The notes under the pieces: generated by a model
Databases searched by the model: none
Told to the model about the DNA's origin: nothing
The model's input: the letters and a program-made list of their open reading frames with translations, nothing else
In this document: positions 15,836 to 48,024 of the stretch, one piece after another
Layout of the letters: the number at the start of each line of letters is the position of its first letter
How positions within the stretch are numbered: position 1 is the first letter of the stretch
Position numbers and translations under genes: made by a program
Origin: Lachnospiraceae bacterium
Lineage (GTDB): Bacteria > Bacillota > Clostridia > Lachnospirales > Lachnospiraceae
Assembly (NCBI GenBank): GCA_902362715.1
Contig: CABIXN010000008.1
Coordinates: 1-64,000 of the forward strand
Length of the DNA: 64,000 bases
Direction: 5' to 3'

Positions 15836-15873
15836 ATGGAATCCTTCCTTTCTGAAAAAATGATATCAGATCC

Positions 15874-15901
15874 GGATGACGGTCAGATGACTTCTAGATG
15901 A
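15874..15901 (-). promoter_or_regulatory. Three phased direct repeats, probable VanR operator of vanG
   Basis: Read on the minus strand: TCATCT-n5-TCATCT-n5-TCATCC, an exact 11-bp period (plus-strand GGATGA 15874, AGATGA 15885, AGATGA 15896). The array resembles a Pho box (CTGTCAT repeats every 11 bp), as expected for a PhoB/OmpR-type regulator such as VanR. The last repeats would overlap the -35 position of a promoter whose -10 may be TATCAT. Confidence 0.65.
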
Positions 15902-16021
15902 CAGTTTTGTCACTTTCATAGAAAAACCGCATCCGGTGTTGATACATTTAGTGTAATCAAAACTAGATACGGTTTTATTGCAATTACCTGTGAAAAATCT
16001 TATGGTTTTCTTAACAGGCAC

Positions 16022-31128: not shown

Positions 31129-32765
31129 GTATTTGTTTGAGGCTTTTAAAACTGGTGAAACCTCTGGCAGGATTTATGGTTCTTGCAGTGGGTATGGGGA
31201 TCGCAGGACATCTTTGCGCCTCCTTTCTTACTGTTCTTGGTGTGTTTGCCGTGCTTTCTGTTCTTCAGGTTACGACAGCTTTGAGTTTAAAGATAATTTT
31301 TATACTGTTAGCGGTGTTTGCTGTATGCAGAGGATTTCTTAGATATGGGGAACAGGCGTGCAATCATTTTATTGCATTTAAGCTGCTGGCTTTGATTCGT
31401 GATAAGGTATTCAGGGCTCTTCGCAGGCTCTGCCCGGCGAAACTGGAAGGAAAGGAAAAGGGCAATCTGATTTCGGTAATTACTTCGGATATTGAACTGC
31501 TGGAGGTATTTTACGCACATACAATCTCACCGGTGTTGATTGCAGTCTGCACATCAGTTTTTATGTGCCTTTTTATTGGCCGTTACCATTGGGCCCTGGG
31601 AGGTCTTGCCGCCGCCTCCTATTTCATTCTTGGATGCGTATTACCCGGGATTACTTCCCGGATGAGCGGAGGGCATGGGGCCGACTTTAGAAAACAGACC
31701 GGAGAGCTTGGAAGCTATGTGCTGGACAGCTTAAGAGGGCTGGAGGAAAACATTCAATATCAGATGGGAGAGGAGCGGCTTAAGGAAATGAATGAACGGG
31801 CAGATAAGCTGTCTGAGGAAGAAAAACACATGAAGAAGCTGGCCGGGAATAATCAGGCGGTGATTCATACAGCGGTTCTTGTTCTCAGCCTGGCTATGCT
31901 TTTAAGTTCTTCGTTTTTATTTCAAAAGCAGCTGATTGGCTTTGAAGGGATACTGATTTCAACAGTGGCGCTTATGAGTTCCTTTGGCCCGGTGATTGCA
32001 CTGGCCAATCTTTCGAGTACTCTGCAAAGTACCATGGCGGCAGGTAACAGGGTGCTGGATATTCTAGATGAGATGCCTTTGACAGAAGATATTACAGATC
32101 AGCCGGAACAGGTGTTTTCCGGAGCAAGACTTCAGCATGTAGAATTTGGATATGGAGATGAAAAAATTTTATCTGATATATCATTGTCAATTTCTAAAAA
32201 TCAAATTATCGGTATTACTGGTAAAAGCGGAAGCGGTAAATCTACACTGCTGAAGCTGCTGATGCGTTTCTGGGAGCGCGATCAGGGAAGCATAACCATT
32301 TCCGGTACAGATATTAACTGTATTAATACCCTGAATCTTAGAAATATGGAAAGTTTTGTTACTCAGGAGACGTATCTGTTTCATGACAGCATTGAAAATA
32401 ATATACGAATTGCAAAACCCGATGCCAGCCGGGAGGAAATAGAAAAAGCCTGCCGGAAAGCATCAGTTCACGATTTTATTATAAGCCTTCCAAATGGATA
32501 TCAGACAAATGCAGGTGAGCTGGGAGATGCGCTCTCCGGGGGAGAGCGGCAGAGAATCGGGCTGGCAAGGGCTTTTTTGCATGAAGCACCGTTTATCTTG
32601 CTGGATGAACCAACCAGTAATCTGGACAGTCTGAATGAAGGGGCTGTGTTAAAAGCGCTGTGCCAGGAAAGAAGCGGTAAAACCATGGTTTTGGTTTCCC
32701 ACCGGCCTTCAACTATGAAAATTGCAGATTATGTCTGCCCGATAGAACACGGGAGGGTAAGCTGA
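31107..32765 (+). CDS. CydC-like ABC transporter, permease-ATPase fusion
   Basis: 552 aa with the same layout as its partner: six helices, then an ABC domain with Walker A GKSGSGKST, signature LSGGERQRIGLARAFL and Walker B ILLDEPTSNLDS, and His in LVSHRPST. Overlap with the upstream gene and adjoining stop/start with the downstream one indicate one operon. Together they would form a heterodimeric exporter for reduced thiols or a related small molecule (inference from CydDC family likeness). Confidence 0.82.
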   Translation: MEKRSSLSICLRLLKLVKPLAGFMVLAVGMGIAGHLCASFLTVLGVFAVLSVLQVTTALSLKIIFILLAVFAVCRGFLRYGEQACNHFIAFKLLALIRDKVFRALRRLCPAKLEGKEKGNLISVITSDIELLEVFYAHTISPVLIAVCTSVFMCLFIGRYHWALGGLAAASYFILGCVLPGITSRMSGGHGADFRKQTGELGSYVLDSLRGLEENIQYQMGEERLKEMNERADKLSEEEKHMKKLAGNNQAVIHTAVLVLSLAMLLSSSFLFQKQLIGFEGILISTVALMSSFGPVIALANLSSTLQSTMAAGNRVLDILDEMPLTEDITDQPEQVFSGARLQHVEFGYGDEKILSDISLSISKNQIIGITGKSGSGKSTLLKLLMRFWERDQGSITISGTDINCINTLNLRNMESFVTQETYLFHDSIENNIRIAKPDASREEIEKACRKASVHDFIISLPNGYQTNAGELGDALSGGERQRIGLARAFLHEAPFILLDEPTSNLDSLNEGAVLKALCQERSGKTMVLVSHRPSTMKIADYVCPIEHGRVS

Positions 32766-33115
32766 TGACAAAAGATATTAAGAAAAAAACAGAGCAGGAG
32801 AAGCGGATGGTATCTGATATGATTTTTCTGTACTGCAGAAAAAAGCATGGGGCCCGGCAGACCTTGTGTTCAGAGTGCAGAGAGCTGAAGCATTATGCAC
32901 AAGTGCGCAGTGATCATTGTCCATTTATGGAAACAAAAACATTTTGTTCCAACTGTACGGTCCATTGCTACAGCCCCCAAATGCGGGAAAAGATACGGAA
33001 AGTTATGGCTTTTTCAGGACCGCGCATGATTCTTTATCATCCTGTGGCGGCAATCAGACATTTAATTACCAGTAAAAGAGAAAAGAGAGAATGGAGGAAT
33101 GTCAATGAAAATTAA
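32765..33115 (+). CDS. ygbA: YgbA-like nitrous-oxide-stimulated promoter family protein
   Basis: 116 aa. It contains the Cys-rich core CRKKHGARQTLCSECRELKHYA..R...CPF....FCSNCTVHCY, characteristic of the YgbA_NO family (a nitrosative-stress protein in enteric bacteria, NsrR regulated). The conserved Cys pairs suggest metal or iron-sulfur binding. It begins at the last base of the ABC gene (stop/start overlap) and overlaps YbaN. Its role here is inferred from family name only. Confidence 0.85.
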   Translation: MTKDIKKKTEQEKRMVSDMIFLYCRKKHGARQTLCSECRELKHYAQVRSDHCPFMETKTFCSNCTVHCYSPQMREKIRKVMAFSGPRMILYHPVAAIRHLITSKREKREWRNVNEN

Positions 33116-33533
33116 AAAACTAATACTAATGGCAGTAGGGTGTCTTTCACTGGCAGTGGGATGTGTGGGGGTTGTGCTTCCCCTGCTTCCGGCGTTTCCA
33201 TTTTTCCTGCTGACGGTTATCTGCTTTACAAAAAGTTCGCAAAAGCTTCATAATTGGTTTGTGGGAACAAAAATGTACAGAAATTCCCTGGAGCCTTTTC
33301 TAAATAAAAAAGGTATGACAATGAAGACTAAGCTTTCTGTTATGGCCAGTGTTACTGCCCTGATGTCTATTGGGTTTATCATGATGAGCCGGATTCCGGT
33401 GGGACGTATTATTTTAGCGGGTGTCTGGGTGTTTCATATGATATTCTTTTTGTTTAAGGTTAAGACAATCAGACCGGAATCCAAAGAAAAGGATGAGCAG
33501 GATGCTTTGGCAGAAGAGGTGTTTGAGCAGTAA
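33105..33533 (+). CDS. ybaN: YbaN/DUF454-family membrane protein
   Basis: 142 aa. It has a GC.SL..G..GVVLPLLPAFPFFLLT core and two further hydrophobic helices, as in the DUF454 (YbaN) family of inner-membrane proteins. ATG 33105 is chosen because GGAGG at 33093-33097 is 7 bases upstream, whereas ATG 33099 would touch it. It is last in the CydDC-YgbA-YbaN operon. Molecular function unknown. Confidence 0.85.
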   Translation: MKIKKLILMAVGCLSLAVGCVGVVLPLLPAFPFFLLTVICFTKSSQKLHNWFVGTKMYRNSLEPFLNKKGMTMKTKLSVMASVTALMSIGFIMMSRIPVGRIILAGVWVFHMIFFLFKVKTIRPESKEKDEQDALAEEVFEQ

Positions 33534-33681
33534 GAGCGTGGTAATAAAAGAACAGGACTTATTTACAGCGGTAATAAAATCATAAGTACTAAAAGTCTCC
33601 TTTTCCGGAAAATTCATGAAAGATTAAGATTATTCAATTAAAAATATGATAAAATGACAGGGTGGAAAGGAGTACATAAAA

Positions 33682-34062
33682 ATGAGTGGAAGACGAAGAA
33701 GGCGCAGAAGAAAATGGCCGGTTATATTGATTGTTATAGTTGTAATTATCCTGCTTTTGCTTTTGGCAGGCGGAAAGTTTTTAAAACACACCATTGCGAA
33801 GACAGCGGCCAGACAGATGATTACTCAGCAGGTTCAGGAAAGCGGCAGCAGTGAAGCTTCAGATATTTTAAACCGGATGTCAGATGAGGATCTGGATACA
33901 GCCACCGGCATTGCAGAAAAATATATTTCCCTTGGAAAGATGAATGAATATATGCAGGCATGGCAGAGCGGTGATCTGTCCAAAATAAAAGAGGAATTAA
34001 AGCAGTCGATGAGTCAGGAGGATCTAGATACGTTAAGGTCACTTTATGAGAAATACCGGTAA
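33682..34062 (+). CDS. Single-pass membrane protein of unknown function
   Basis: 126 aa. A very basic N-terminus (MSGRRRRRRRKW) precedes one hydrophobic helix (about 14-31), then an acidic helical domain with DEDLDTATGIAEKYI and a second similar EDLDTLRSLYEKY, hinting at a duplicated helical motif. Ribosome site AAGGAG at about 33666. It is followed by a terminator at 34156. The topology is N-in with an extracytoplasmic helical domain. Confidence 0.6.
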   Translation: MSGRRRRRRRKWPVILIVIVVIILLLLLAGGKFLKHTIAKTAARQMITQQVQESGSSEASDILNRMSDEDLDTATGIAEKYISLGKMNEYMQAWQSGDLSKIKEELKQSMSQEDLDTLRSLYEKYR

Positions 34063-34155
34063 ACATTGACTGTGGTCAGAAAAGAATGATTCATGTAAGA
34101 TAAGCGGAAAGCAAAAAAGAAATCCCAAGGGGCTGTAAAAAAACTCCCCTAAAAG

Positions 34156-34193
34156 AAAAATCGCCCAGACCGTGAGGTCTGAGCGATTTTTTT
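34156..34193 (+). terminator. Rho-independent terminator
   Basis: AAAAATCGC-c-CAGACC-gtga-GGTCTG-a-GCGATTTTT with a T run. It marks the left edge of the accessory island. Confidence 0.9.
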
Positions 34194-34258
34194 ATAAAAC
34201 TTATACAACGATTAAACATAAGGACGACAGGGAGTAAAAACCTTGCCGTCTTTATATT

Positions 34259-34582
34259 TTACATTTTCTCTTTATAATCTTTTCCCCAAGCTTCCATTGC
34301 AGAAATAATTGGTCGCATTGATTCCCCAAGTTCTGAAAGAGAATATTCTACTCTCGGTGGAACTTCGGCGTAAACTGTACGAATGACAATTCCATCGCTT
34401 TCCATAGAACGCAGACTGTCCGTTAATACTTTTTGGCTGATACCTTCAAGGGATTTTTGCAATTCATTAAATCGCCACGGACGGGCAAGCAGATTTCTCA
34501 TTATCAGCAATTTCCATTTACTTCCTATCATTTGAACAGTAGTAGCCACAGGGCAAGCTGGCAGTTCTTCTTTTTTTATCAT
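34259..34582 (-). CDS. HxlR-family transcriptional regulator
   Basis: 107 aa winged-helix protein with the HxlR pattern CPVATTVQMIGSKWKLLIMRNLL, RFNELQKSLEGISQKVLTDSLR and YSLSELGESM. The Cys at about residue 10 (PACPV) is the redox-reactive position of many HxlR/YodB-type sensors. The ATG at 34580-34582 has GAGGTG upstream. It is divergent from the ACGX operon across a 256-bp gap carrying a CGTAC-tt-GTACG palindrome, so it is the likely regulator of that operon (inference). Confidence 0.88.
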   Translation of the reverse strand: MIKKEELPACPVATTVQMIGSKWKLLIMRNLLARPWRFNELQKSLEGISQKVLTDSLRSMESDGIVIRTVYAEVPPRVEYSLSELGESMRPIISAMEAWGKDYKEKM

Positions 34583-34752
34583 AGCAAGCACCTCTAATCG
34601 AATGTTACATCAAATTGTAATGTTATACTCATATTTTACTGTGAATCGCTAAAAAAGCAATAGAGCAGTCTTAATTTCTAAAAAATATTATCCTTAAAAT
34701 GCCTGTAAACACGCAAAAGTTACAAAAAGGTGCGTATCCCAATAAAAAAGTG

Positions 34753-34764
34753 CGTACTTGTACG
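34753..34764. promoter_or_regulatory. Palindrome CGTACTTGTACG, probable HxlR operator
   Basis: Perfect 5-bp arms CGTAC and GTACG separated by TT, in the gap between HxlR and the ACGX precursor. A half-related GTGCGTATCCC lies about 20 bp earlier. AT-rich promoter-like DNA surrounds it. Confidence 0.55.
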
Positions 34765-34838
34765 AGCAGAATTTATTAGTACAATTATAGATACAGGGAG
34801 CCAAAAACTCGCTGAATATACTAATGGAGGTCAATATT

Positions 34839-35030
34839 ATGGCACTCAAAGACATTTTAGGTTGGAACAAAAAAGAGGAAGCACCTGCTTCTGCTTGTGG
34901 AACAGCTTGCGGAGCATCTGACAAGCCTAATGAAACTCCTGCCGCTTGCGGTTCAGCCTGCGGAGCATCCGATAAGCCTGCTGAAACACCTGCTGCTTGC
35001 GGTTCAGCCTGCGGAGCAAGTGATAAATAA
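34839..35030 (+). CDS. ACGX-repeat RiPP precursor peptide
   Basis: 63 aa. A 19-residue leader-like N-terminus (MALKDILGWNKKEEAPASA) is followed by three copies of a 17-residue unit ACGxACGASDKPxETPA, giving six cysteines at 20, 24, 37, 41, 54 and 58 (spacing 4-13-4-13-4). The DNA repeats every 51 bp. GGAGG lies 8 bases before ATG. The following radical SAM/SPASM enzyme makes this the substrate: the predicted product carries thioether or other Cys-derived crosslinks (ranthipeptide-like), inferred from family knowledge. An intercistronic hairpin follows, as is usual to raise precursor levels. Biological role unknown. Confidence 0.85.
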   Translation: MALKDILGWNKKEEAPASACGTACGASDKPNETPAACGSACGASDKPAETPAACGSACGASDK

Positions 35031-35045
35031 TTGTTCCAAACTGGG

Positions 35046-35075
35046 GTTCCCGATGAATGTGCATTCGTCGGGAAC
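35046..35075 (+). terminator. Intercistronic hairpin, partial terminator
   Basis: GTTCCCGA-t-GAATG-tg-CATTC-g-TCGGGAAC followed by ATTTAACAA. It lies between precursor and maturase and could act as an attenuator favouring precursor mRNA. Confidence 0.7.
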
Positions 35076-35123
35076 ATTTAACAATAACACGGATTATCCG
35101 TTTATTATATGAGGTAAATTACT

Positions 35124-36155
35124 ATGAAACAATATTTTTCTTTTCAATGGCACATTACAGATGAATGTGACCAAAGGTGTAAGCATTGCTATATCTTTTC
35201 TGAAAACAACTGCAAAAAGCTCGATATGATGAACCTCGAACAAATGCAGGATACTTTCTATAACTGCCTTGATTTTTGTAAGGTATATGACCGTTTGCCG
35301 TATTTTTATATCACAGGTGGTGACCCGATTTTACACCCAGACTTTTGGAGTCTGCTTGAGCTTATGAACGAAAATGAAATACCGTTTAGCATTCTCGGTA
35401 ACCCATTTCATTTAACAGATGATATTTGCAGAAAGCTAAAAGAATACGGCTGTCAAAAATATCAGCTTTCACTTGACGGTATGCGTGAAACACACGATTG
35501 GTTTCGTAAGCCAGGCTCATTTGATTGTACTTTAGAGAAAATCGGTTGTATCAATCGTGCAGGTATTCGTTCAGTGGTTATGACAACAGTATCAGGAACA
35601 AATATCAAAGAAGTACCAGATATTATTGATACGGCTGTAAAGGCTGACGTAAATGTATTTGCGTTTGCTCGCTACTGCCCAACAAGCGAAGAAAAGGATA
35701 CAGGGATGACCCCGCAGGAATACCGCAAATTGCTTGTCGCTTGCGATAAAAAGTTTAAGGAATATGAAGCGAATGGATGTCAGACATACTTTAACAAGAA
35801 AGACCATTTATGGACTCTGTATGAGTATGAAACAGGTGAGTTTAAAGTTTCCGAAGCTATCGAGGATGGAATGATATACGGAGGCTGTAACTGTGGTAAC
35901 TGTCATTTGACAATAGTTCCGACGGGAGATGTTTTCGCCTGCCGAAGAGTACAAAACAGTAAGGTGGGAAATGTATTTGAGGACAGACTTGCTGATGTGT
36001 GGATTTGTGAAATGGAAAACTACCGTGACTATACAAAATTTGAAAAATGCTCAAAATGTGAGCTTTTAGCGTGGTGTCGTGGCTGCCCTGCTGTGGCAAG
36101 CGGAAAAGACGGTAATTTTTATGCGGCAGACCCGCAATGTTGGAAGGAAGTGTGA
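35124..36155 (+). CDS. Radical SAM/SPASM maturase, ACGX system
   Basis: 343 aa. The N-terminal radical SAM cluster is Cys15-x3-Cys19-x2-Cys22 in DECDQRCKHCY, with a GGDP motif (about 70). A C-terminal SPASM region has clusters GGCNCGNCHLTIVPTGDVFACRR and CSKCELLAWCRGCPA, supplying auxiliary iron-sulfur ligands. It is adjacent to a repeat precursor with paired cysteines and followed by a nitroreductase, the typical ACGX arrangement. The enzyme would act on the Cys-x3-Cys units, most likely forming thioethers (inference). Confidence 0.88.
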   Translation: MKQYFSFQWHITDECDQRCKHCYIFSENNCKKLDMMNLEQMQDTFYNCLDFCKVYDRLPYFYITGGDPILHPDFWSLLELMNENEIPFSILGNPFHLTDDICRKLKEYGCQKYQLSLDGMRETHDWFRKPGSFDCTLEKIGCINRAGIRSVVMTTVSGTNIKEVPDIIDTAVKADVNVFAFARYCPTSEEKDTGMTPQEYRKLLVACDKKFKEYEANGCQTYFNKKDHLWTLYEYETGEFKVSEAIEDGMIYGGCNCGNCHLTIVPTGDVFACRRVQNSKVGNVFEDRLADVWICEMENYRDYTKFEKCSKCELLAWCRGCPAVASGKDGNFYAADPQCWKEV

Positions 36156-36158
36156 ATT

Positions 36159-36734
36159 ATGTTAATGGATATTATTAAAGCTCGTCATTCTATCCGAAAG
36201 TACACGGATAAGCAAATCAGCCGTGAGGATATGGAGAAAATTATGGAAGCTGGTAATTTTGCTCCTAATGCAGGCGGCGGTCAGCGTAGTATTTTAATCG
36301 GAGTTCACAACAAAGATTTAGTAACCAAAATAGGAATAATGAACCTTTCAAAATTTGACCGTAGTAACCTTGCAGGCTCTTATGTTTCAAGGGAACAGCC
36401 GAGTGTAATTGATGATGAACATATTGAAAACGGCTTTTACGATGCACCCAGTGTTGTAGCAATTTTCGGGCAGAATGGATTTTTATTTCGGGAAGCAGAC
36501 GCTTTTTGCTGTGCCGAAAATATGGTTTTACAGGCAACAGAACTTGGCATTGCGTCCTGCATAATTTCTCGTGGAGCAGACACATTTTTAAGTGCAGAGG
36601 GGAAAAAAATACTTAAACAGTGGGAAATTCCCGAAAACTATTCTGCGATTTGCTTTGTTATTCTCGGATATATCGACGGTGAGCAGCCACACACAAAACC
36701 AAGAAAAGTGGGAAGAGTCAAAATCGTGGGATAA
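36159..36734 (+). CDS. Nitroreductase-family flavoprotein
   Basis: 191 aa with the nitroreductase signature IKARHSIRKYTDKQISREDMEKIMEAGNFAPN for FMN contacts, and AENMVLQATELGIASC in the middle. It begins 4 bases after the radical SAM gene stop, so it is in the same operon. It could modify the ACGX peptide, as flavin oxidoreductases do in other RiPP pathways, or serve redox defence under HxlR control; sequence alone does not decide. Confidence 0.85.
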   Translation: MLMDIIKARHSIRKYTDKQISREDMEKIMEAGNFAPNAGGGQRSILIGVHNKDLVTKIGIMNLSKFDRSNLAGSYVSREQPSVIDDEHIENGFYDAPSVVAIFGQNGFLFREADAFCCAENMVLQATELGIASCIISRGADTFLSAEGKKILKQWEIPENYSAICFVILGYIDGEQPHTKPRKVGRVKIVG

Positions 36735-36761
36735 ATATCTGAAACGAAAGAAAACGAAATA

Positions 36762-37091
36762 ATGGAATATAGAAAAGCAAACGATGCGATTTATCTTCGG
36801 ATTGATAAAAATGAAAAAATAGTTGAAACAATCAAGACGGTGTGTGCAAAAGAAATGATTTACGGAGGACATTTTCAAGGAATTGGAGCTTGTGATACAG
36901 CAACGCTCTCAACTTATTTGCCCGATAAAAATGATTTTACAGACCATACCATTTCTGGAATGATTGAGATGATTTCTCTTATGGGGAATATCACTGTTGA
37001 TAATAATAATGAGCCTTTTGTGCATAGTCACGCTGTTTTCTCATACTTGAATAATAACGGGGAAATTGTTAAGGTATTGATACAAGAATAA
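36762..37091 (+). CDS. PPC (DUF296) domain protein, C-terminally short
   Basis: 109 aa with the PPC/DUF296 fold: GGHFQGIGACDTATLSTY and HSHAVFSYLNNNGEI. The domain normally runs about 130-140 aa and continues with GGHL...; here it stops after GEIVKVLIQE, so the final strand and helix are missing. It may be a truncated or decaying gene. PPC proteins in bacteria are nucleoid- or ligand-binding proteins of unclear role. It sits between nitroreductase and macrodomain genes. Confidence 0.65.
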   Translation: MEYRKANDAIYLRIDKNEKIVETIKTVCAKEMIYGGHFQGIGACDTATLSTYLPDKNDFTDHTISGMIEMISLMGNITVDNNNEPFVHSHAVFSYLNNNGEIVKVLIQE

Positions 37092-37112
37092 GTCTGCAAC
37101 GGAGAATAAAAT

Positions 37113-37886
37113 ATGACACAGGTTGAAAGAAGAAATTATTTAATAAAAGAATTGTTTGCAGAACACCCCGAATATGCAAATATGGAGATACCAGAAAGCG
37201 AAGAAGCACAAAAAGGTCTTTTGCGTTCGCTCCTTAATATCCGTTTGCCACATAAAATTAGCGAGCAATTTCTTACTGTGCAAGATGACTATTTGCAGGA
37301 AGAAACCAAACTAAAAGGTATTACAGACCTTGCAAGTCTTAAGTCATTTGAGAACAACCTTTATCTTTGGCAGGGCGATATTACAACGCTGAAATGCGAC
37401 GCCATCGTTAATGCTGCAAATAACGGAATGACGGGGTGTTATCAACCCTGCCACGCTTGTATTGATAATTGTATTCATACTTTTGCAGGCATTCAGCTTC
37501 GTTTAGAGTGTGCGGAACTGATGCAACGTCAAGGCTTTAAAGAACCGACAGGTACAGCAAAAATCACTTCTGCTTATAATTTGCCTTGCAAATATATAAT
37601 ACATACTGTCGGTCCGATTGTGAGTGGAACAGTTACTCAAAAGGACTGCGATTTGCTTCGGAGCTGTTACCGTGCCTGTTTGGAGCTTGCGGAGAAAAAG
37701 GAAGTTCGGAGTATTGCGTTTTGCTGTATTTCAACAGGAGTATTTCATTTTCCAAATGATATAGCAGCTGAAATTGCAGTTGCTACCGTTAAAGAATACC
37801 TTGAAAAATGTAAAAATGAAATGAAGGTGATATTTAATGTTTTTAAAGATGAGGATTACAAAATCTACAGAGCCTTACTTGGATAA
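37113..37886 (+). CDS. Zinc-dependent macrodomain ADP-ribosyl hydrolase (Zn-Macro)
   Basis: 257 aa. After an ~80-residue helical N-terminus, the macrodomain has WQGDITTLKCDAIVNAANN and a metal-site cluster GCYQPCHACIDNCIH, with IIHTVGPIV and the ADP-ribose loop CISTGVFHFPN. The Cys/His insert is the mark of zinc-containing macrodomains encoded beside macrodomain-linked sirtuins, where they remove the mono-ADP-ribosylation added by the sirtuin. It overlaps the sirtuin gene by 50 bp, strong evidence for coupled function. Confidence 0.87.
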   Translation: MTQVERRNYLIKELFAEHPEYANMEIPESEEAQKGLLRSLLNIRLPHKISEQFLTVQDDYLQEETKLKGITDLASLKSFENNLYLWQGDITTLKCDAIVNAANNGMTGCYQPCHACIDNCIHTFAGIQLRLECAELMQRQGFKEPTGTAKITSAYNLPCKYIIHTVGPIVSGTVTQKDCDLLRSCYRACLELAEKKEVRSIAFCCISTGVFHFPNDIAAEIAVATVKEYLEKCKNEMKVIFNVFKDEDYKIYRALLG

Positions 37887-38703
37887 TATCAAAAAACTGA
37901 AAGAAAAAATCGAAACAACCGACACGATTGTCATAGGTGCAGGAGCAGGTCTTTCTACTTCGGCAGGTTTTATCTATGATGGCGAGAGATTTCATAAATA
38001 TTTTGCTGACTTTGAAGAAAAGTACGGCTTTCACGATATGTATTCAGGTGGTTTTTACCCATATAAAACATTAGAAGAATATTGGGCATATTGGAGTTGC
38101 TACATTGCGGTCAACCGATATGATGATGCACCAAAGCCTGTATATAATGAATTACTTAAGCTTGTGAACGATAAAGATTATTTCGTTATCACTACAAATG
38201 TTGACCATTGTTTTCAAAAAGCAGGATTTGATAAAAAACGCTTATTTTATACGCAGGGAGATTACGGCTTGTTTCAATGCAGCGTGCCTTGCCATAATAA
38301 AACATACGATAATGAAGAGGTCATTAGAAATATGATGGCACAGCAAAGAAATATGAAAGTACCTACAGAACTTTTACCCAAGTGTCCTGTCTGCGGCAAG
38401 CCTATGACAATGAATTTGCGTTCTGATAATAAGTTTGTTGAGGACAAGGGATGGCATACTGCAGCCGAGCGTTATTCAAATTTTCTTCGTTCACGGCAAA
38501 ATGGGAATATACTATTTCTGGAACTTGGTGTTGGATATAATACGCCTGTTATCATTAAATATCCCTTCTGGCAGATGACAGCACAGAATCCCAGGGCAGT
38601 TTATGTCTGCTTAAATTTGATGGATGCGGCGGCGCCGCAGGAGATTGCAAGACGTTCCATCTGTATTCAGGGGGATATTGGGAAGGTGCTGGAGTTATTA
38701 TAG
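37837..38703 (+). CDS. Macrodomain-linked sirtuin (SirTM), putative mono-ADP-ribosyltransferase
   Basis: 288 aa SIR2-fold protein with TIVIGAGAGLSTSAGF (NAD-binding GAGxS), VITTNVDHCFQKAGF, a zinc-type CSVPC ... CPVC and GVGYNTPVIIKYPFW near the end. SirTM proteins linked to Zn-Macros act as ADP-ribosyltransferases in redox-stress modules. Ribosome site AAGGTG precedes 37837. The last ~50 codons (from 38557) are duplicated downstream twice, and GC/codon use shifts inside this end, so the 3' end appears to have been replaced by an inserted module. No GcvH-L or LplA2 gene is in the window. Confidence 0.85.
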   Translation: MFLKMRITKSTEPYLDNIKKLKEKIETTDTIVIGAGAGLSTSAGFIYDGERFHKYFADFEEKYGFHDMYSGGFYPYKTLEEYWAYWSCYIAVNRYDDAPKPVYNELLKLVNDKDYFVITTNVDHCFQKAGFDKKRLFYTQGDYGLFQCSVPCHNKTYDNEEVIRNMMAQQRNMKVPTELLPKCPVCGKPMTMNLRSDNKFVEDKGWHTAAERYSNFLRSRQNGNILFLELGVGYNTPVIIKYPFWQMTAQNPRAVYVCLNLMDAAAPQEIARRSICIQGDIGKVLELL

Positions 38704-38722
38704 ACAACAGATTTATTTAAAG
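38557..38722 (+). repeat. Direct repeat, sirtuin 3' end, copy 1
   Basis: 166 bp matching 40266-40431 with only about 4 substitutions and no gaps. It encodes the sirtuin C-terminus (KYPFWQMTAQNPRAVYVCLN onward), its stop codon and 20 bp beyond. The third copy at 41956-42141 is more diverged. Confidence 0.9.
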
Positions 38723-38737
38723 ATTCATATTTACTTT

Positions 38738-38767
38738 CGTGCTACAGTTATGTATAATTGTAGCACG
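38738..38767. promoter_or_regulatory. Inverted repeat over the abiE promoter, probable AbiEi operator
   Basis: Perfect 9-bp arms CGTGCTACA / TGTAGCACG with a 12-base spacer containing TATAAT. AbiEi antitoxins autorepress by binding inverted repeats in their own promoter, which fits. Confidence 0.75.
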
Positions 38768-38782
38768 AAAGGAAGCGATTGA

Positions 38783-39376
38783 ATGAAACAGTTTGAGAAG
38801 TTGGAAATCCTCTTGAATGAGCAGGGGGGAATGATTCAGACATCGGAGGCAGTAAAACGAGGCATTTCAAAACCGGTATTTTATAACTATGTAAAAGAAA
38901 AAAAATTAGAGCAGGCGGCGCATGGAATCTATGTATCATCTGATGCTTGGATTGATGCCATGTATCTGATTCATATGCGGTGTAGTCACGGGGTGTTTTC
39001 CCACGAGACTGCTTTGTTTTTTTATGACCTTACAGACCGTGAGCCTTCGCCCTATTCCATTACAGTTAAGCGGGGATATAGTACTACCCGTTTAAAAGCA
39101 GATGGGCTTTCTGTTTACACCATTAAGCAGGAACTGCACGAGATTGGGAAGAGTACGGCACAAACCCCTTTCGGTCATACGGTTCCAGTGTATGATATGG
39201 AGCGAACCATTTGTGATTTGCTGCGCTGCCGGAGCAGCATTGAGATGCAGACATTTCAAAGTGCGCTCAAAATGTATGCCCGCAGAAAAGATAAAGACTT
39301 GCGGAGACTGATGCAATATGCAGGACTATTCCGGGTTGAGAAGATTTTGCGTCAGTATTTGGAGGTGCTTTTATGA
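38783..39376 (+). CDS. abiEi: AbiEi-type antitoxin / transcriptional regulator
   Basis: 197 aa. N-terminal winged helix (GGMIQTSEAVKRGISKPVFYNYV) is followed by the AbiEi C-terminal domain with HETALFFYDLTDREP and VYDMERTICDLLRCR. It overlaps the toxin gene by 4 bp and sits behind a palindromic promoter, as expected of the type IV AbiE system (phage abortive infection in lactococci and streptococci). It would repress the operon and counter AbiEii. Confidence 0.9.
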   Translation: MKQFEKLEILLNEQGGMIQTSEAVKRGISKPVFYNYVKEKKLEQAAHGIYVSSDAWIDAMYLIHMRCSHGVFSHETALFFYDLTDREPSPYSITVKRGYSTTRLKADGLSVYTIKQELHEIGKSTAQTPFGHTVPVYDMERTICDLLRCRSSIEMQTFQSALKMYARRKDKDLRRLMQYAGLFRVEKILRQYLEVLL

Positions 39377-40227
39377 TAAAGACTGCAAGACAGTTAAAAG
39401 ATTTGATTCGCAATCTCTCGAAGGAAAAATCTGCGGATGCGCAAATTCTGATGCGAAATTACATGATGGAGCGTTTTTTGGAGCGTATTTCTCTTTCGGA
39501 ATATCGGGATAATTTTATTTTGAAGGGTGGAATGCTGGTTGCGGCAATGGTGGGACTGGATGCCCGGTCTACAATGGACTTGGATGCAACGGTCAAAGGA
39601 ACCAATGTGAATGTCACGGACATTGAAAATCTGATTGCATCCATCATAACAGTTCCTATTGATGACGGTGTGACCTTTCAGTTAAAAAGTATTTCCGAAA
39701 TTATGGACGAGGCCGAGTATCCGGGAAGTCGAGTCAGCATGGCGGCAGCTTTTGATGGAGTGGTGACGCCTCTGAAGATTGATATTTCTACCGGAGACGC
39801 TATTACTCCCAGGGAGGTCAAATATAGCTTTAAGCTCATGCTGGAAGAGCGCTCTATTGATATTTGGGCGTATAATCTGGAAACCGTACTGGCAGAGAAG
39901 CTGGAGACAATCATTACCCGGGCAACAACGAATACCCGCATGAGAGACTTCTACGATATTTACATTCTGAAACAGCTTCATGGAAGGTCGTTGAACACGG
40001 AGGTTTTCCGTGATGCGTTGTTGTCCACCGCCCACAAGCGAGAGACAGAGAAGTATCTGGCTGATGCAAAAGCAGTATTTCAAGAGGTGAAAGACAGCCA
40101 TGTGATGCAGAATCTTTGGACTGCTTATCGGAAGAAGTTTTCTTATGCAGCTGAATTGGAATGGGATTCGGTCGTGGCGGCGGTTTGTTTCCTGTATGCC
40201 TTAACAGAGAATGGCGGAACAAAATGA
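39373..40227 (+). CDS. abiEii: AbiEii-type nucleotidyltransferase toxin
   Basis: 284 aa. The nucleotidyltransferase core has FILKGGMLVAAMVG and ARSTMDLDATVKG, the GGxx..DLD pattern of AbiEii-family toxins, plus conserved downstream Lys/Tyr residues (AEKLETIITR, RDFYDIYIL). All catalytic Asp residues appear present. Its stop overlaps the start of the second sirtuin-end copy, so the duplicated fragment begins exactly at its end. Confidence 0.9.
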   Translation: MIKTARQLKDLIRNLSKEKSADAQILMRNYMMERFLERISLSEYRDNFILKGGMLVAAMVGLDARSTMDLDATVKGTNVNVTDIENLIASIITVPIDDGVTFQLKSISEIMDEAEYPGSRVSMAAAFDGVVTPLKIDISTGDAITPREVKYSFKLMLEERSIDIWAYNLETVLAEKLETIITRATTNTRMRDFYDIYILKQLHGRSLNTEVFRDALLSTAHKRETEKYLADAKAVFQEVKDSHVMQNLWTAYRKKFSYAAELEWDSVVAAVCFLYALTENGGTK

Positions 40228-40412
40228 AAATGGTGGGCAATAAACATAACACCCCGGGCATTATAAAATATCCCTTCTGGCAGATGACAGCACAGAATCC
40301 CGGGGCAGTTTATGCCTGCTTAAATTTGATGGATGCGGCGGCACCGCAGGAGATTGCAAGACGTTCCATCTGTATTCAGGGGGATATTGGGAAGGTGCTG
40401 GAGTTATTATAG
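40224..40412 (+). pseudogene. Sirtuin 3'-end fragment, copy 2
   Basis: 63 codons starting ATG 40224 (overlapping the AbiEii stop as ATGA) and encoding GNKHNTPGIIKYPFWQ then the same C-terminal sequence as the sirtuin. DNA 40266-40431 is nearly identical to 38557-38722. There is no SIR2 catalytic part, so it is a non-functional duplicated gene end, although it may be translated by coupling. The GNKHNTP beginning is shared with copy 3, not with the intact gene. Confidence 0.85.
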
Positions 40413-40431
40413 ACAACAGATTCATTTAAAG
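40266..40431 (+). repeat. Direct repeat, sirtuin 3' end, copy 2
   Basis: Second member of the 166-bp direct repeat that flanks the abiE pair (first member 38557-38722). Confidence 0.9.
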
Positions 40432-40435
40432 TTTG

Positions 40436-40530
40436 TGTTTGTTTTCGTACTACAGTTATGTATAATGGCAACGCGAAAGAAAGTGATAAGCAAGGATATA
40501 GCACTGCCTGTTTAAAAGAAGATTGCTTAT
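40436..40530 (+). pseudogene. Remnant of a second abiE promoter and abiEi
   Basis: TACTACAGTTATGTATAAT matches the abiE promoter region (38741 on), with a mutated right arm of the inverted repeat. A few bases later GGATATAGCACTGCCTG and TTTAAAAG match the middle of abiEi (about 39073-39098). The intervening abiEi DNA is deleted. This shows a second abiE unit once stood behind copy 2. Confidence 0.7.
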
Positions 40531-40552
40531 TCTGCTCATTCTAACCAATCTA

Positions 40553-40581
40553 TTGACAAGAACGGTCAGAATGGGTAGAAT
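40553..40581 (+). promoter_or_regulatory. Sigma-A promoter with repeats for the AlbA-domain gene
   Basis: TTGACA, 17 bases, TAGAAT. An imperfect inverted repeat CATTCTaACC / GGTcAGAATG spans the -35, and GGGTAGAAT occurs twice at the -10, suggesting autoregulation. Confidence 0.65.
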
Positions 40582-40611
40582 GTGGGTAGAATAAAATTTG
40601 GAGGCGGTCAA

Positions 40612-41925
40612 ATGATTTTTCAGGAAAGCGAAACAGTTGAGTTGAAGGCAATCGTGGTGGAAGATATAAAAAAAGAAATCATTGCTTTTGCAAACTGCGA
40701 GGGTGGGAAAATATATATCGGTGTTCAGGATGACGGAACAGTGTCAGGATTGGATAATCCGGATGAAACTTCTTTACAAATCAGCAATATGGTTCGGGAT
40801 GCAATCAAGCCGGATTTGACCATGTTTCTTCACTATGAAACAGTGACGGCAGACGGAAAGAAAATCGTTGCAGTTGATATTCAGCAAGGAACTGAAAGGC
40901 CATATTATATTGCTAAAAAAGGTCTGCGCCCTGAAGGCGTTTATGTCCGTCAGGGCTATTCCTCTGTTCCAGCCACAAATACAGCAATCCGGCGCATGAT
41001 TAAAGAAACAGATGGAGACCGCTTTGAGGAAATGCGGTCTTTGGAGCAGAATTTAACTTTTGAAAGTGCGAAAAAAACATTTGCAGAGCGAAATGTAAAG
41101 TTTGGACCTGCACAAATGAAAACACTTGGATTAATAACACAGGATGGCGTCTATACAAATCTGGGGCTGCTGCTTTCAGATCAGTGTGTGCATACAATCA
41201 AGGCTGCTGTTTTTCAGGGCACAAAGCAAAGTGAGTTTAAGGATCGGAAAGAATTTTCTGGTTCTTTGTTTCAGCAGATGGATGAAGTCTATGATTTTAT
41301 TGATTTTCACAATCAGACACATTCAACCTTTGATAAACTGTATCGTATTGACAGGCGGGATTATCCCGAAACTGCTGTCAGAGAGGCACTTATGAATCTT
41401 CTGGTTCATCGTGAATATTCATTCCGTGCCAGTACATTCGTCAGTCTTTATGCAGACAGGATTGAATTTACTTCTATCGGCGGTTTAGTAAGCGGCGTGA
41501 CTTTAAAGGATGTAACAATGGGTATATCTGTCTGCCGAAACATAAAACTTGCAAATGTATTTTACCGTTTGGAACTGATAGAAGCTTATGGAACGGGACT
41601 TATAAAAATCATGGATGCATATGAGGGAACAGGGATGACACCGCAGATTGAAACATCTGAAAATGCATTTAAGATTATTCTCCCGAACTTGAACGCAAGG
41701 CCTGAACCGGAAAAAGCCATACAGGTCAGAACCAGGAAAGATACCTCAGAAGAAAAGGTGATTGCTCTGACAAAAGAACGGGGTTTTGTTACAAGAAAAG
41801 AAGTTGAAATATTGCTTGGTATCAGACAATCATCATGCGGACGTTTGTTAAAAAAAATGATAGAAAACGGTCTGCTGATTCAAGACGGCAAAGGAAAGAA
41901 TACCCGCTACTGCCTTCCGCAGTAA
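40612..41925 (+). CDS. AlbA_2/Schlafen-type putative transcriptional regulator (COG2865)
   Basis: 437 aa. The N-terminal AlbA_2 domain has ESETVELKAIVVEDIKKEI and FANCEGGKIYIGVQDDGTV. A middle region ends in a HATPase_c_4-like part (ETAVREALMNLLVHREYS, IEFTSIGGLV..GVT), and a C-terminal winged helix follows (VTRKEVEILLGIRQSSCGRLL). ATG 40612 has GGAGG 7-8 bases upstream. Related proteins are common in genomic islands, sometimes in defence neighbourhoods. Here it occupies the space between sirtuin-end copies 2 and 3. Function is not established. Confidence 0.82.
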   Translation: MIFQESETVELKAIVVEDIKKEIIAFANCEGGKIYIGVQDDGTVSGLDNPDETSLQISNMVRDAIKPDLTMFLHYETVTADGKKIVAVDIQQGTERPYYIAKKGLRPEGVYVRQGYSSVPATNTAIRRMIKETDGDRFEEMRSLEQNLTFESAKKTFAERNVKFGPAQMKTLGLITQDGVYTNLGLLLSDQCVHTIKAAVFQGTKQSEFKDRKEFSGSLFQQMDEVYDFIDFHNQTHSTFDKLYRIDRRDYPETAVREALMNLLVHREYSFRASTFVSLYADRIEFTSIGGLVSGVTLKDVTMGISVCRNIKLANVFYRLELIEAYGTGLIKIMDAYEGTGMTPQIETSENAFKIILPNLNARPEPEKAIQVRTRKDTSEEKVIALTKERGFVTRKEVEILLGIRQSSCGRLLKKMIENGLLIQDGKGKNTRYCLPQ

Positions 41926-41955
41926 AGAAGATATTAAGGAGAGATTTACTTCAAA

Positions 41956-42141
41956 ATGGCGGGCAATAAACATAACACCCCTGTTATTATTAAGTATCCA
42001 TTTTGGCAGATGACAGTATCAAATCCCAAAGCTACATACGCTTGTGTGAATTTCGGTGAAGCTGTTTGCCCTAATGAAATCAAGGAACAGTCGATTTGTA
42101 TTAACGGCGATATAGGTACTGTTCTTTCAGATTTGAGGTGA
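41956..42141 (+). pseudogene. Sirtuin 3'-end fragment, copy 3
   Basis: 62 codons starting with AGNKHNTPVIIKYPFWQMT, colinear with the sirtuin C-terminus but diverged (TVSNPKATYACVNFGEAVCP) and AT-richer, like the sirtuin gene body. It may be the original gene end left behind after modules were inserted. It has no catalytic SIR2 domain. Confidence 0.8.
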
Positions 42142-42153
42142 ATTGATTAGAGT

Positions 42154-42282
42154 ATGTATGTCTTCAGGTCTTCAGATTTTTTCTTGGAAGAAGCTGATGC
42201 TTGGCGAGATGAAGCGTGGGAAATTATAAGAAGTCGCTCCGACGTAAGGTTCTTTCTGCTGACAAAAAGACCACAAAGAGTG
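42154..42282 (+). pseudogene. DUF5131 (Gp37/Gp68-like) fragment
   Basis: The frame encodes SDFFLEEADAWRDEAWEII and FFLLTKRPQRV, a segment characteristic of the DUF5131 phage-associated family, but nothing before or after. The downstream part of the same frame is a different gene, so this is an in-frame fusion of two remnants. Confidence 0.65.
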
Positions 42283-42468
42283 ATAAAAGCAGATTGGATA
42301 TTTGGTCCTATTTGCGGCAATAAAACTCGTGACCGTATAAGAGAAGATACAGTATTGGAGGACTATCCTCTCTACTGCCCAAAATGTAAGCAAGAAAGTT
42401 TAATTGAAGCCGAGAACCTACGTATAAGTGTCATCAAAGCGCCAGACGCAAAGACGCAGAGCCGATGA
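42280..42468 (+). CDS. Cys-rich KTR family protein
   Basis: About 62 aa: DWIFGPICGNKTRDRIREDT, then YPLYCPKCKQESLIEAENL and a final PDAKTQSR. This is the small zinc-ribbon-like Cys_rich_KTR protein common in Tn916-type conjugative elements. One Cys of the usual first CPxCGNKTR pair is replaced (FGPICG). A GTG start at 42280 is possible. A strong hairpin follows. It suggests a former integrative element at this site. Confidence 0.75.
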   Translation: MIKADWIFGPICGNKTRDRIREDTVLEDYPLYCPKCKQESLIEAENLRISVIKAPDAKTQSR

Positions 42469-42502
42469 TATGTGAGAAGCCTCATATATTATCGGCTCTT
42501 TC
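42458..42502 (+). terminator. Rho-independent terminator after the KTR gene
   Basis: AGAGCCGAT-g-ATATGtGAG-aag-CCTCATAT-at-TATCGGCTCT followed by TTCTTG; the stem is about 18 bp. Confidence 0.8.
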
Positions 42503-42559
42503 TTGTATACCTATACAATAAAACCACCTGATCTGCGAGTGGTTCCCCGTTCGGCTTTA

Positions 42560-42868
42560 GCCCTAGATAACAAAACCTCCAATGTTATAATAAGTGTGGG
42601 TCCTAAACCGCACTACATATAACAAAGGAGGTATCCAAAATGGATAAAAATACTTTATCACACACAACGTGGGAGTGTAAATATCACATTGTATTTGCAC
42701 CCAAATTTAGAAGATAAAGGCAAATAATAAGTCCTTGTAAGGACTAAGCCGGTGAATAAGGTGCGGTTGGGACTCTTATTTTCGTAGGGCCTTTGAGGCC
42801 CAAGCCGGCAATAGTCCCTTACAGGGACAGAGCAAACCACCAGCTAAGCTGGTGGTGCTGATTTTTTA
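42560..42868 (+). mobile_element. Internally deleted IS200-like element
   Basis: It contains a TnpA start (MDKNTLSHTTWECKYHIVFAPKFRR), then a stop and about 120 bp of subterminal DNA with short palindromes (GTCCTTGTAAGGAC, GGGCCTTTGAGGCCC). A terminal hairpin ACCACCAGC-taa-GCTGGTGGT lies at 42836-42856. The rest of the ~150-aa transposase is missing. Left boundary is approximate. It lies directly against a tRNA gene and looks like a non-autonomous derivative that another IS200 copy could move. Confidence 0.7.
42640..42717 (+). pseudogene. tnpA: IS200-type TnpA N-terminal fragment
   Basis: 25 codons with AAGGAGG ribosome site upstream. CKYHIVFAPKFRR is the conserved TnpA start; a TAA follows immediately. 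The catalytic HUH motif and Tyr are absent. Confidence 0.8.
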
Positions 42869-42869
42869 G

Positions 42870-42943
42870 TAGCGAGAGGGGGATTTGAACCCTCGACACT
42901 ACGGGTATGAACCGTATGCTCTAGCCAACTGAGCTATCTCGCC
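42870..42943 (-). tRNA. tRNA-Met (CAT)
   Basis: 74 nt on the minus strand with acceptor GGCGAGA/TCTCGCT, D arm TAGCTCAGTTGGCTAGAGC, anticodon loop TTCATAC (CAT) and T loop TTCAAAT. CCA is not encoded. It is probably elongator Met; a k2C-modified Ile cannot be excluded. Sequence is identical to the third tRNA of the cluster. Confidence 0.9.
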
Positions 42944-42966
42944 AAATTTTTAATTTGCGTAAAAAA

Positions 42967-43039
42967 TGGGACCTACAGGGCTCGAACCTGTGACCCTCTG
43001 CTTGTAAGGCAGATGCTCTCCCAGCTGAGCTAAGATCCC
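42967..43039 (-). tRNA. tRNA-Val (TAC)
   Basis: 73 nt on the minus strand with acceptor GGGATCT/AGGTCCC, anticodon loop CTTACAA (TAC) and T loop TTCGAGC. Confidence 0.92.
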
Positions 43040-43045
43040 ATTTAA

Positions 43046-43119
43046 TAGCGAGAGGGGGATTTGAACCCTCGACACTACGGGTATGAACCGTATGCTCTAG
43101 CCAACTGAGCTATCTCGCC
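43046..43119 (-). tRNA. tRNA-Met (CAT), second copy
   Basis: Identical to 42870-42943. The three tRNAs form one minus-strand cluster; a hairpin GGGTTGT/ACAACCC lies just upstream (about 43130-43147). Confidence 0.9.
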
Positions 43120-43275
43120 ATAATTTTACGGGTTGTTGGACAACCCGCCTAAATAATATACAATTAAATACCATTAGAAGTCAAGTGTTTTTTGAAAAAA
43201 ATCCCAAAACTTTTAAGCTTTTAAGCTGGCCAGTTGTAAAAGTAAATTTCTCCGTTTTATTGTTTTCATATTATT

Positions 43276-43842
43276 TTACTTTAATTTTAAAAGCCAGAAG
43301 GTTGTACGGTTTGTAGAGGAATCTTCGATGTTTTCAGCCACCAGCTCCAGATTCCATGCCTGGCCGGCCCGGATGCTGCAGATTACAGCAGTGGTGTCTG
43401 GCAGGATTCCTTTCGCAAGCCATTCTGCTCCGATGGCTGTATCTTCGATTTCCTTTTCCAAAAGCTGCGGATAATTTCCAGCTCTTGTCTGCTGTGTCTG
43501 AGACAGCGCCTGAGGGTGGGAGGCAACTTCTGTAAGGTGCTCCATTGGTGTTTCGGCTGATAATTTGAAAAGACAGTGGTGGATCGGAAGCACAAAGGTC
43601 TCTAGGTGTTCATACTGAATGTGTGAAAAGGTTTCCACGAATTCAGAAACCGGTCCGGCACTGGAATTTTCCACCCCAAGCACGCCGTAATCAATGGTGC
43701 CCTGCTGGAGTTCCTTTAAAATATTACGCGCGCAGATTAACGGAATATAAGATACGTCGGTTATTTCTGCCTGTTTGGCAAGTTCTCGGGCAGCGATTTC
43801 GGAAAAACTGCCGGGAATGCCCATATAGCCAATTTTTTTCAT
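43276..43842 (-). CDS. Prephenate-dehydratase-like protein without ACT domain
   Basis: 188 aa of the prephenate dehydratase / type-2 periplasmic-binding fold: IGYMGIPGSFSEIAA, DYGVLGVENSSAGPV, and HPQALSQ (catalytic-site region). In bona fide PheA the catalytic TRF tripeptide follows; here the end reads TNRTTF, with Thr in place of the Arg. The ACT regulatory domain is missing. ATG 43842 follows AAGGAG by 7 bases. It may be a divergent dehydratase or a ligand-binding relative; an aminotransferase gene lies divergent to it. Confidence 0.7.
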   Translation of the reverse strand: MKKIGYMGIPGSFSEIAARELAKQAEITDVSYIPLICARNILKELQQGTIDYGVLGVENSSAGPVSEFVETFSHIQYEHLETFVLPIHHCLFKLSAETPMEHLTEVASHPQALSQTQQTRAGNYPQLLEKEIEDTAIGAEWLAKGILPDTTAVICSIRAGQAWNLELVAENIEDSSTNRTTFWLLKLK

Positions 43843-44007
43843 AATAATCTCCTTATATTGCAAATATGTATTCATTGTTTTGACTGGAATTTCTTATCGA
43901 ATATTATAACCTATATTTTCTAAAAATCCAGTATATTCATGAGATGATTGTTGTGATGAGAAAAAAATTATTGTAAAATAAAATACGTCAGAAAAGAGGA
44001 TGAAATT

Positions 44008-45180: not shown

Positions 45181-45192
45181 GAGGAAGATGCC

Positions 45193-45828: not shown

Positions 45829-45865
45829 ACTATCATCATTCACCCAGGCATTCTCTTCTTTTTTA

Positions 45866-47416: not shown

Positions 47417-47515
47417 TTTTATCATCTCCTCTTTTATCTTAGACTGGAAAAATCAAAAAAGTCAAGAAGTGTTAATTTTATGACGAGATGAATAGAGAGA
47501 ATAAGGGAGCGGATT

Positions 47516-48001: not shown

Positions 48002-48024
48002 AGATCTGCAAAACCCGGATATGG

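Follow-up and report, generated by a model that had tools for sequence, protein, structure and literature searches.

The closest described relatives of the locus reported here are operons built around class M sirtuins (SirTM). In the published operon (PMC4518038), flavin oxidoreductases and a switch made of SirTM and a zinc macrodomain protein (Zn-Macro) accompany a small carrier protein that is lipoylated and the ligase that modifies it; in its extended form, from Lactobacillales and Staphylococcaceae, it comprises GcvH-L, LplA2, SirTM, Zn-Macro, OYE and LLM in a setting of oxidative stress. A minimal operon with the SirTM/Zn-Macro pair and no GcvH-L is also on record (PMC4518038, PMC11490716). 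PMC11490716 reports that SpyGcvH-L is acted on neither by MorMacro, the Zn-Macro of such a lone pair, nor by Zn-Macros from fusion proteins, and that physiological substrates have yet to be identified. Here, we describe positions 34259..38703 of a 64,000-nucleotide stretch of Lachnospiraceae bacterium DNA (GenBank assembly GCA_902362715.1, contig CABIXN010000008.1, positions 1 to 64,000, forward strand; hereafter the window), in which a class M sirtuin and a Zn-macrodomain stand together with a precursor of the ACGX family of ribosomally synthesised and post-translationally modified peptides (RiPPs), its radical SAM/SPASM maturase and a nitroreductase, divergent from an HxlR-family regulator. 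Judging from comparison of sequences, this is probably (with a probability of about 0.6) a conserved, HxlR-linked redox or electrophile-stress operon in which SirTM and macrodomain would gate a member of the operon.

Like the extended SirTM operon, the window operon combines a class M sirtuin and a Zn-Macro with flavin oxidoreductase functions and with a small protein accompanied by its modifying enzyme. It differs in that the ACGX peptide and the radical SAM/SPASM enzyme replace GcvH-L and LplA2, and operons of the window type have a divergent HxlR gene and a nitroreductase, MDR-type dehydrogenase or PNPOx-ferredoxin instead of OYE and LLM. It resembles the minimal operon in having the sirtuin and macrodomain without GcvH-L, but differs from it in that RiPP and oxidoreductase genes share the operon with the pair. 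The initial annotation had remarked on the lack of GcvH, and indeed no operon gene in the window matches GCV_H in a Pfam scan; the same scan gave no match to LplA2 among the window's operon genes.

Both NCBIfam models of the ACGX system (TIGR04340 and TIGR04341) are matched in the window. Their names cover the peptide and the maturase only, and the link of this system to HxlR, oxidoreductases and ADP-ribosylation comes from the present comparison of loci. No paper on the ACGX/TIGR04340/TIGR04341 family was found, judged by title, and none on SirTM with HxlR, or on radical SAM with macrodomain and sirtuin, in titles and abstract starts of the open literature, preprints excluded. The gene families are known; their conserved combination is a new variation on the SirTM/Zn-Macro operon.

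Organisation of the locus

All genes named in the initial annotation are present at 34259..38703, with matches to NCBIfam, Pfam and solved structures:

34259..34591, - strand: HxlR-family regulator, divergent (PF01638, E 2.5e-31; Cys-Pro-Val at residue 13)
34730..34785, + strand: predicted operator and promoter (GTGCGTA at 34730; GTGCGTACTT at 34750-34759 over a -35-like CTTGTA; TACAAT at 34780-34785)
34839..35030, + strand: ACGX-repeat precursor peptide, 63 aa, three repeats, six Cys (TIGR04341, 61.6 bits, cut-off 28)
35043..35078, + strand: hairpin between the peptide and maturase genes, 15-pair stem
35124..36155, + strand: radical SAM/SPASM maturase of the ACGX system (TIGR04340, 598.5 bits, cut-off 400; CX3CX2C, as CDQRCKHC)
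36159..36734, + strand: nitroreductase-family flavoprotein (PF00881, E 1.6e-23)
36762..37091, + strand: PCC (DUF296) domain protein, 109 aa, C-terminally shortened (PF03479, E 5.2e-17, positions 3-88 of 117)
37113..37886, + strand: Zn-macrodomain ADP-ribosyl hydrolase (NF003163, 367 against a cut-off of 272; 8rsi, E 2.8e-77; 5kiv, E 3e-74)
37837..38703, + strand: class M sirtuin, SirTM (5a3a, E 6.8e-74)

The peptide gene lies next to that of the maturase, each scoring above its cut-off. The unit is compact, with + strand intergenic gaps of 93 nt (which holds the hairpin), 3, 27 and 21 nt and a 50-nt overlap between the macrodomain and sirtuin genes. Between 33500 and 39500 promoter-like sites do not exceed chance (13, vs 17.9 in shuffles) while terminator-like sites do (nine, vs 4.5 in shuffles), and one weak + strand terminator-like site lies inside the unit, at 35089-35101, ahead of the maturase gene. 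Given this site and these counts, an internal start or stop is possible and a single transcript is not proven by sequence. The G+C content of the operon (34000-38500) is 0.37-0.41 per 500 nt, below that of most flanks, and there is little GC skew at its left end; both features are compatible with acquisition from elsewhere.

The sirtuin scores below the Pfam SIR2 cut-off (22.7 against 24 bits) and aligns over residues 15-283 with SpySirTM (5a3a, E 6.8e-74). Asn118, Gln137, Arg192 and Asn258 of SpySirTM match the same residues in the window protein, in which Gln replaces the catalytic His, and the class motif GVGx[NT]TP is kept as GVGYNTP; the first three residues are reported as needed for ADP-ribosylation (PMC4518038). 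By these residues, this motif and the linked, overlapping macrodomain gene, the protein is a class M sirtuin whose catalytic residues are intact. In the macrodomain protein, a zinc loop replaces the Gly-rich loop and is followed by Dx3H, with GCYQPCHACIDNCIH aligned to GCFIPMHNCIDNIIH of 8rsi. The alignment spans residues 5-256, so that the N-terminal helical bundle (aa 1-70 of SauMacro), described as required in PMC11490716, is present.

Recurrence of the link in other genomes

The adjacency claimed for the window is conserved elsewhere. A search with the maturase gave 477 relatives, of which the best 80 formed the sample of ACGX loci (L001-L080), which by title belong to Lachnospiraceae, Oscillospiraceae and other Clostridia, with many metagenome bins. 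Isolates with the operon include Agathobaculum sp. Marseille-P7918 (L008), Pseudoflavonifractor sp. 524-17 (L076) and Pseudoflavonifractor sp. 60 (L052). Of the 54 loci for which 4 kb or more of downstream sequence is available, 34 have a same-strand SirTM no farther than 6 kb away, which was counted as linkage; a macrodomain was found in 24 of these 54, always alongside SirTM. A divergent HxlR gene stands in 56 of the 66 loci with at least 1500 nt upstream, and a nitroreductase, MDR-type dehydrogenase or PNPOx-ferredoxin in all 65 with at least 2.5 kb downstream. The same-strand runs behind the maturase in 81 loci (the 80 and the window) hold few kinds of gene: nitroreductase in 44, PNPOx-ferredoxin in 42, SirTM in 34, macrodomain in 25, MDR in 24 and ferredoxin-nitroreductase in 4, with nothing else above 3.

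To reduce the bias of a sample seeded on the locus, two genome samples were used, one of 294 genomes around G016 (which carries L034, Candidatus Choladousia) and one of 197 around G041 (which carries L029, Yanshouia), each drawn from the order of that genome; both centre genomes had themselves been picked for their ACGX locus. ACGX maturases above the cut-off occur in 22 genomes (23 loci) of the G016 order and in 10 genomes (11 loci) of the G041 order. SirTM on the same strand, within 5 kb in the former order and 7 kb in the latter, is linked to 10/23 and 5/11 of these loci (15/34 together), or to 9/22 and 4/10 (13/32 together) without the centre genomes, at gaps of 0.7-4.3 kb and once 6.9 kb. 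With an assumed 1% chance of linkage, the binomial tail for 15/34 is 1.6e-21. One of the ten linked loci of the G016 order, in G300, is decayed, with a stop in the maturase and a stop in the sirtuin. SirTM is also more frequent in genomes with ACGX than in those without, both in the G016 order (15/22 vs 99/272, p 0.005) and in the G041 order (9/10 vs 37/187, p 9e-6). The initial annotation would have called the link accidental given separate promoters together with no co-occurrence in other genomes; the second of these conditions is contradicted, since the link recurs in two orders, and the link is not accidental.

Within the ten linked genomes of the G016 order, no GCV_H match was found on the contig of the linked SirTM. 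Full-length GcvH is encoded in two of them (G016 and G148), on another contig than the linked SirTM, while six have no GcvH match and G142 and G300 have a short weak one, in G142 just over the cut-off.

The history of the link was examined with a quick maximum-likelihood tree of 122 SirTM proteins, 50 of them labelled ACGX-linked. The ACGX label changes 20 times on this tree, against 38.9 in shuffles, and at least five changes are forced by well-supported branches, although the 'unlinked' label includes loci cut by a contig end and some changes may be false. For example, the ACGX-linked SirTM of G267, 43% identical to that of the window, belongs to a clade with strong support whose other members are unlinked, and the ACGX-linked SirTM of G148 falls in another such clade. 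Such repeated joining argues for a functional benefit.

The PCC gene is a sporadic member, found in one of the 80 related ACGX loci and in a further locus, L111. The window protein had been described as the product of a truncated gene, and at 109 aa it does lack the C-terminal part of its two homologues found, in L029 and L111. An insert of ~5 kb interrupts the PCC gene of L029 (Yanshouia hominis, 12253-17848) and separates the ACGX half from the SirTM/macrodomain half.

In addition, 80 SirTM loci were sampled. An Rrf2 regulator stands near 18 of the 70 in which ACGX is absent, instead of or besides HxlR; such loci include L163, L166, L167, L184, L186 and L187, some with SnoaL-like or PNPOx genes. 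No match to a plasmid copy of the operon was found. Carriage of SirTM by phages was considered and set aside. Three records came up: a Staphylococcus phage record (42% match covering 92% of the query) and two faecal scaffolds, unverified, that match in part. One of these scaffolds, L223, holds a sirtuin remnant, an HxlR gene, transport genes, a carbon monoxide dehydrogenase-like frame (recognised by eye) and a phage-type integrase (by Pfam), and because of this gene content it is taken as a piece of chromosome with a mobile element near.

Regulator, operator and hairpin

The N-terminal cysteines of HypR and YodB are sensors of electrophiles or disulfide stress. We take these redox-sensing HxlR/DUF24 regulators to share with the window protein an HxlR domain, an N-terminal Cys-Pro and a position divergent from a nitroreductase operon. 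The HxlR domain of the window regulator is well matched (PF01638, 107.8 bits, cut-off 20.8), and the cysteine reported near its N-terminus is there, in the Cys-Pro-Val at residue 13. This tripeptide occurs in 54 of the 62 HxlR genes divergent from the ACGX maturase in L001-L080 and the window; of the remaining eight, five keep the Cys beside another neighbour, and three are a fragment, another HxlR and a misjudged start.

The predicted operator GTGCGTACTT is conserved exactly in 53 of the 61 ACGX loci with an upstream divergent HxlR gene (window included), with one change in seven, and is missing from one. It mostly lies ~85-97 nt ahead of the peptide start codon and is followed by a TACAAT- or TATAAT-like box. 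In the window it stands at 34750; a partial repeat lies at 34730, and the stretch up to the sirtuin has no other copy. On both strands of 31518-48946 no GTGCGTA was found besides those at 34730 and 34750. Among the 80 sampled SirTM loci, the exact operator stands beside HxlR in seven of the eight HxlR-bearing loci with ACGX.

A stem of at least 9 pairs is present in 57 of 66 gaps of 60-240 nt between the peptide and maturase genes, vs 2 to 13 of 66 in ten dinucleotide shuffles, and the hairpin may shield the peptide message or damp the downstream genes. No known RNA families were found in 33500-42700.

The ACGX peptide

The peptide lies upstream of the maturase in 71 of the 73 loci (of 80) with at least 600 nt available. 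A set of 71 peptides that includes that of the window has 2 to 15 Cys per peptide, and these are built of one to about eight units of the form ACG(S/T)ACGA(G/A/S)DKP(E/A)E(K/T)P. Since the sole transporter-like cluster in the runs behind the maturase occurs in two loci only and no peptidase stands out, the peptide probably acts inside the cell. A frame of 618 residues in G207 that matches TIGR04340 was considered as a telling fusion and rejected: it is a more distant radical SAM protein, 42% identical to that of the window, with no other operon genes nearby.

Proposed function and alternative explanations

We suggest that oxidation or alkylation of the HxlR cysteine would release the regulator from GTGCGTACTT and allow one transcript to be made, from which, owing to the hairpin, the peptide would be more abundant than the remaining operon products. 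The radical SAM enzyme would modify the Cys repeats of the peptide, which could be kept in the cell as a thiol or thioether carrier, for redox or electrophile chemistry, served by the flavin and Fe-S oxidoreductases. SirTM would add ADP-ribose to a member of the operon set and the Zn-macrodomain would remove it, so that NAD+ supply and stress would set whether this member works.

Several observations weigh against this reading. An intact SirTM within 6 kb is absent from 20 of the 54 ACGX loci (one of which, L029, has SirTM ~7 kb off behind an insertion, and another, L055, a remnant), and no SirTM was detected in 7/22 ACGX genomes of the G016 order and 1/10 of the G041 order. Conversely, ACGX is absent from the fetched stretch in 70 of the 80 sampled SirTM loci, some of these stretches ending at a contig edge. 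The ACGX core is thus often without SirTM and SirTM mostly without ACGX, and neither needs the other. Ten of the 34 SirTM-linked ACGX loci have no macrodomain nearby, and G016, which has SirTM, has no macrodomain at E 1e-40 genome-wide. As for the regulator, the window HxlR differs from the redox-sensing HxlR proteins in scoring under the cut-offs of both NCBIfam redox models (RrpB 117.3 against 175 bits, RrpA 84.1 against 185 bits), of the 25 SirTM loci that have HxlR but no ACGX only 6 carry the exact operator next to HxlR, and HxlR distances do not track SirTM distances (r 0.05, p 0.28). Furthermore, many of the relatives are metagenome bins with short contigs.

The broad statement has two special cases, which differ in the substrate of SirTM. 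One of them, possible but in our view less likely than not, is that the ACGX peptide, naive or matured, is modified on the Asp of its ACGxACGxxDK repeats or on Cys, the Zn-macrodomain reversing this. The peptide is the sole small non-enzyme constant in the operon, as GcvH-L is in its own, and the two modules have been joined repeatedly on the SirTM tree; moreover, in PMC11490716 SpyGcvH-L is modified on Asp27 and Zn-Macros are described as the only known Cys-ADP-ribose hydrolases. An Asp occupies the corresponding position of 254 of the 267 repeat units, but this residue is kept equally well without a linked SirTM (65/69 units) and with one (134/139; undecided, 55/59), so its conservation was rejected as the mark of an ADP-ribose site. 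The ACGX loci and genomes without SirTM, and the SirTM loci without ACGX, also speak against the peptide as substrate. By analogy with the published operon, the matured Cys-repeat RiPP might even replace lipoyl-GcvH-L as an intracellular redox carrier gated by SirTM and Zn-macrodomain, a possibility that we regard as rather doubtful. It is unlikely, in our judgement, that the substrate is instead a flavin or Fe-S oxidoreductase, above all PNPOx-ferredoxin, with the peptide only co-regulated. PNPOx-ferredoxin accompanies 28/34 SirTM-linked but 8/20 unlinked ACGX loci (p 0.0025), and it or a lone PNPOx stands near SirTM in 29 of the 70 loci without ACGX; neither form is near SirTM in the other 41, however, and the window operon itself has no PNPOx-ferredoxin gene in the Pfam scan.

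A different explanation is that the two halves share a regulon and nothing more, independent ACGX/oxidoreductase and SirTM/macrodomain stress modules, the latter acting on an unrelated protein, having often come to lie behind one HxlR promoter since each is of use under the same stress. This has a real chance of being correct, although we lean against it. Each module also occurs alone, and the operator beside HxlR in those six SirTM loci without ACGX indicates that both modules can share one regulon. In nine ACGX genomes (five of the G016 order, four of the G041 order) every SirTM gene lies on a different contig from ACGX, with the caveat that contigs may be broken. On the other hand, maturase distances correlate with those of SirTM (Mantel r 0.48) and of the macrodomain (r 0.53, each p 0.0005; with HxlR, r 0.19, p 0.06), correlations that may partly reflect common descent, and the operon admits few other genes, which is narrow for co-regulation alone. 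An accidental neighbourhood in one genome can appeal only to possible horizontal transfer, the G+C content being below that of most flanks; it is contradicted by the recurrence in two orders and in 34 of 54 loci and by the repeated joining on the tree, and we regard it as next to impossible.

Copies of the sirtuin 3' end and defence-type genes

Downstream of the operon, the end of the sirtuin gene is found again beside defence-type genes, a feature absent from the initial annotation:

38518..38725, + strand: sirtuin 3' end, first copy, within the sirtuin gene itself (repeat comparison)
38783..40227, + strand: AbiEi/AbiEii pair downstream of the sirtuin (PADLOC, AbiEi E 1.4e-72, AbiEii E 3.4e-100)
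40227..40434, + strand: sirtuin 3' end, second copy (94% identical DNA over 189 nt)
40582..41925, + strand: SLFN AlbA_2/HATPase_c_4 protein (PF04326, E 1.8e-23; PF13749, E 7.6e-16)
41953..42141, + strand: sirtuin 3' end, third copy, more diverged (repeat comparison)

The last ~190 nt of the sirtuin gene recur after the AbiEi/AbiEii pair and after the AlbA/HATPase gene, and both extra tails begin with GGYGGGCAATAAACATAACACCCC where the sirtuin has GGATATAATACGCC, inside the codons of the GVGxNTP motif. Extra sirtuin tails behind a joint of this type are also found in L034, L070, L114, L127 and L156. The extra tail of L180 has a different joint, that of L159 lies upstream and that of L129 is weak; L201 and L203 are also among the loci with sirtuin 3' ends duplicated around defence-type genes. 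With two mismatches allowed, the joint pattern was found at ten places in 7 of the 294 genomes of the G016 order (G266 has three in succession) and in none of the 197 of the G041 order; a reversed pattern, used as a control, gave no match. Next to the tails stand genes for AbiE pairs, AlbA/HATPase proteins, AAA_14/DUF4143 proteins and, in G133, a ToxN toxin, and the one AAA_14/DUF4143 protein scanned matches the PADLOC candidate defence PDC-S01.

G278 and G266 share an identical AAA_14 region of ~1.25 kb while their tails and flanks are 56-86% identical, which indicates that defence-type genes are exchanged at the sirtuin 3' end, with a spare copy of the end kept on the far side. The plainer reading is homologous exchange between the repeated sirtuin ends; a bolder one is a site-specific system, now lost or acting in trans. 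The stretches read contain no complete recombinase gene between tails. In G133, however, a frame of 139 aa ends 36 nt ahead of the second tail; it matches DUF4368 (PF14287, E 8.6e-24), a domain from the C-terminal region of large serine recombinases. Carriage of the tail cassettes by phage was dropped as an explanation, as scans of viral contigs found nothing.

Behind the second tail, 40425-40523 is similar to sequence upstream of AbiEi and to a portion of the AbiEi gene itself (repeats D4 and D8), so a second AbiE copy may once have stood where the AlbA gene is now. Further downstream, a frame of 26 codons (42641-42718) could, judged by eye, be the beginning of an IS200/IS605 transposase; it has no Pfam match and lies beside tRNA-Met, tRNA-Val and tRNA-Met genes on the minus strand (42641-43120).

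Implications

A conserved and nearly closed operon of five recurrent enzymes and one small peptide, met repeatedly among gut bacteria, provides a short list of candidates for the substrate of SirTM and Zn-Macro. Through the same comparison, the ACGX RiPP family gains a regulator, a predicted operator and a likely setting, that of redox or electrophile stress. If the peptide itself is the substrate that replaces lipoyl-GcvH-L, this would be a RiPP that works inside the cell under the control of ADP-ribose.

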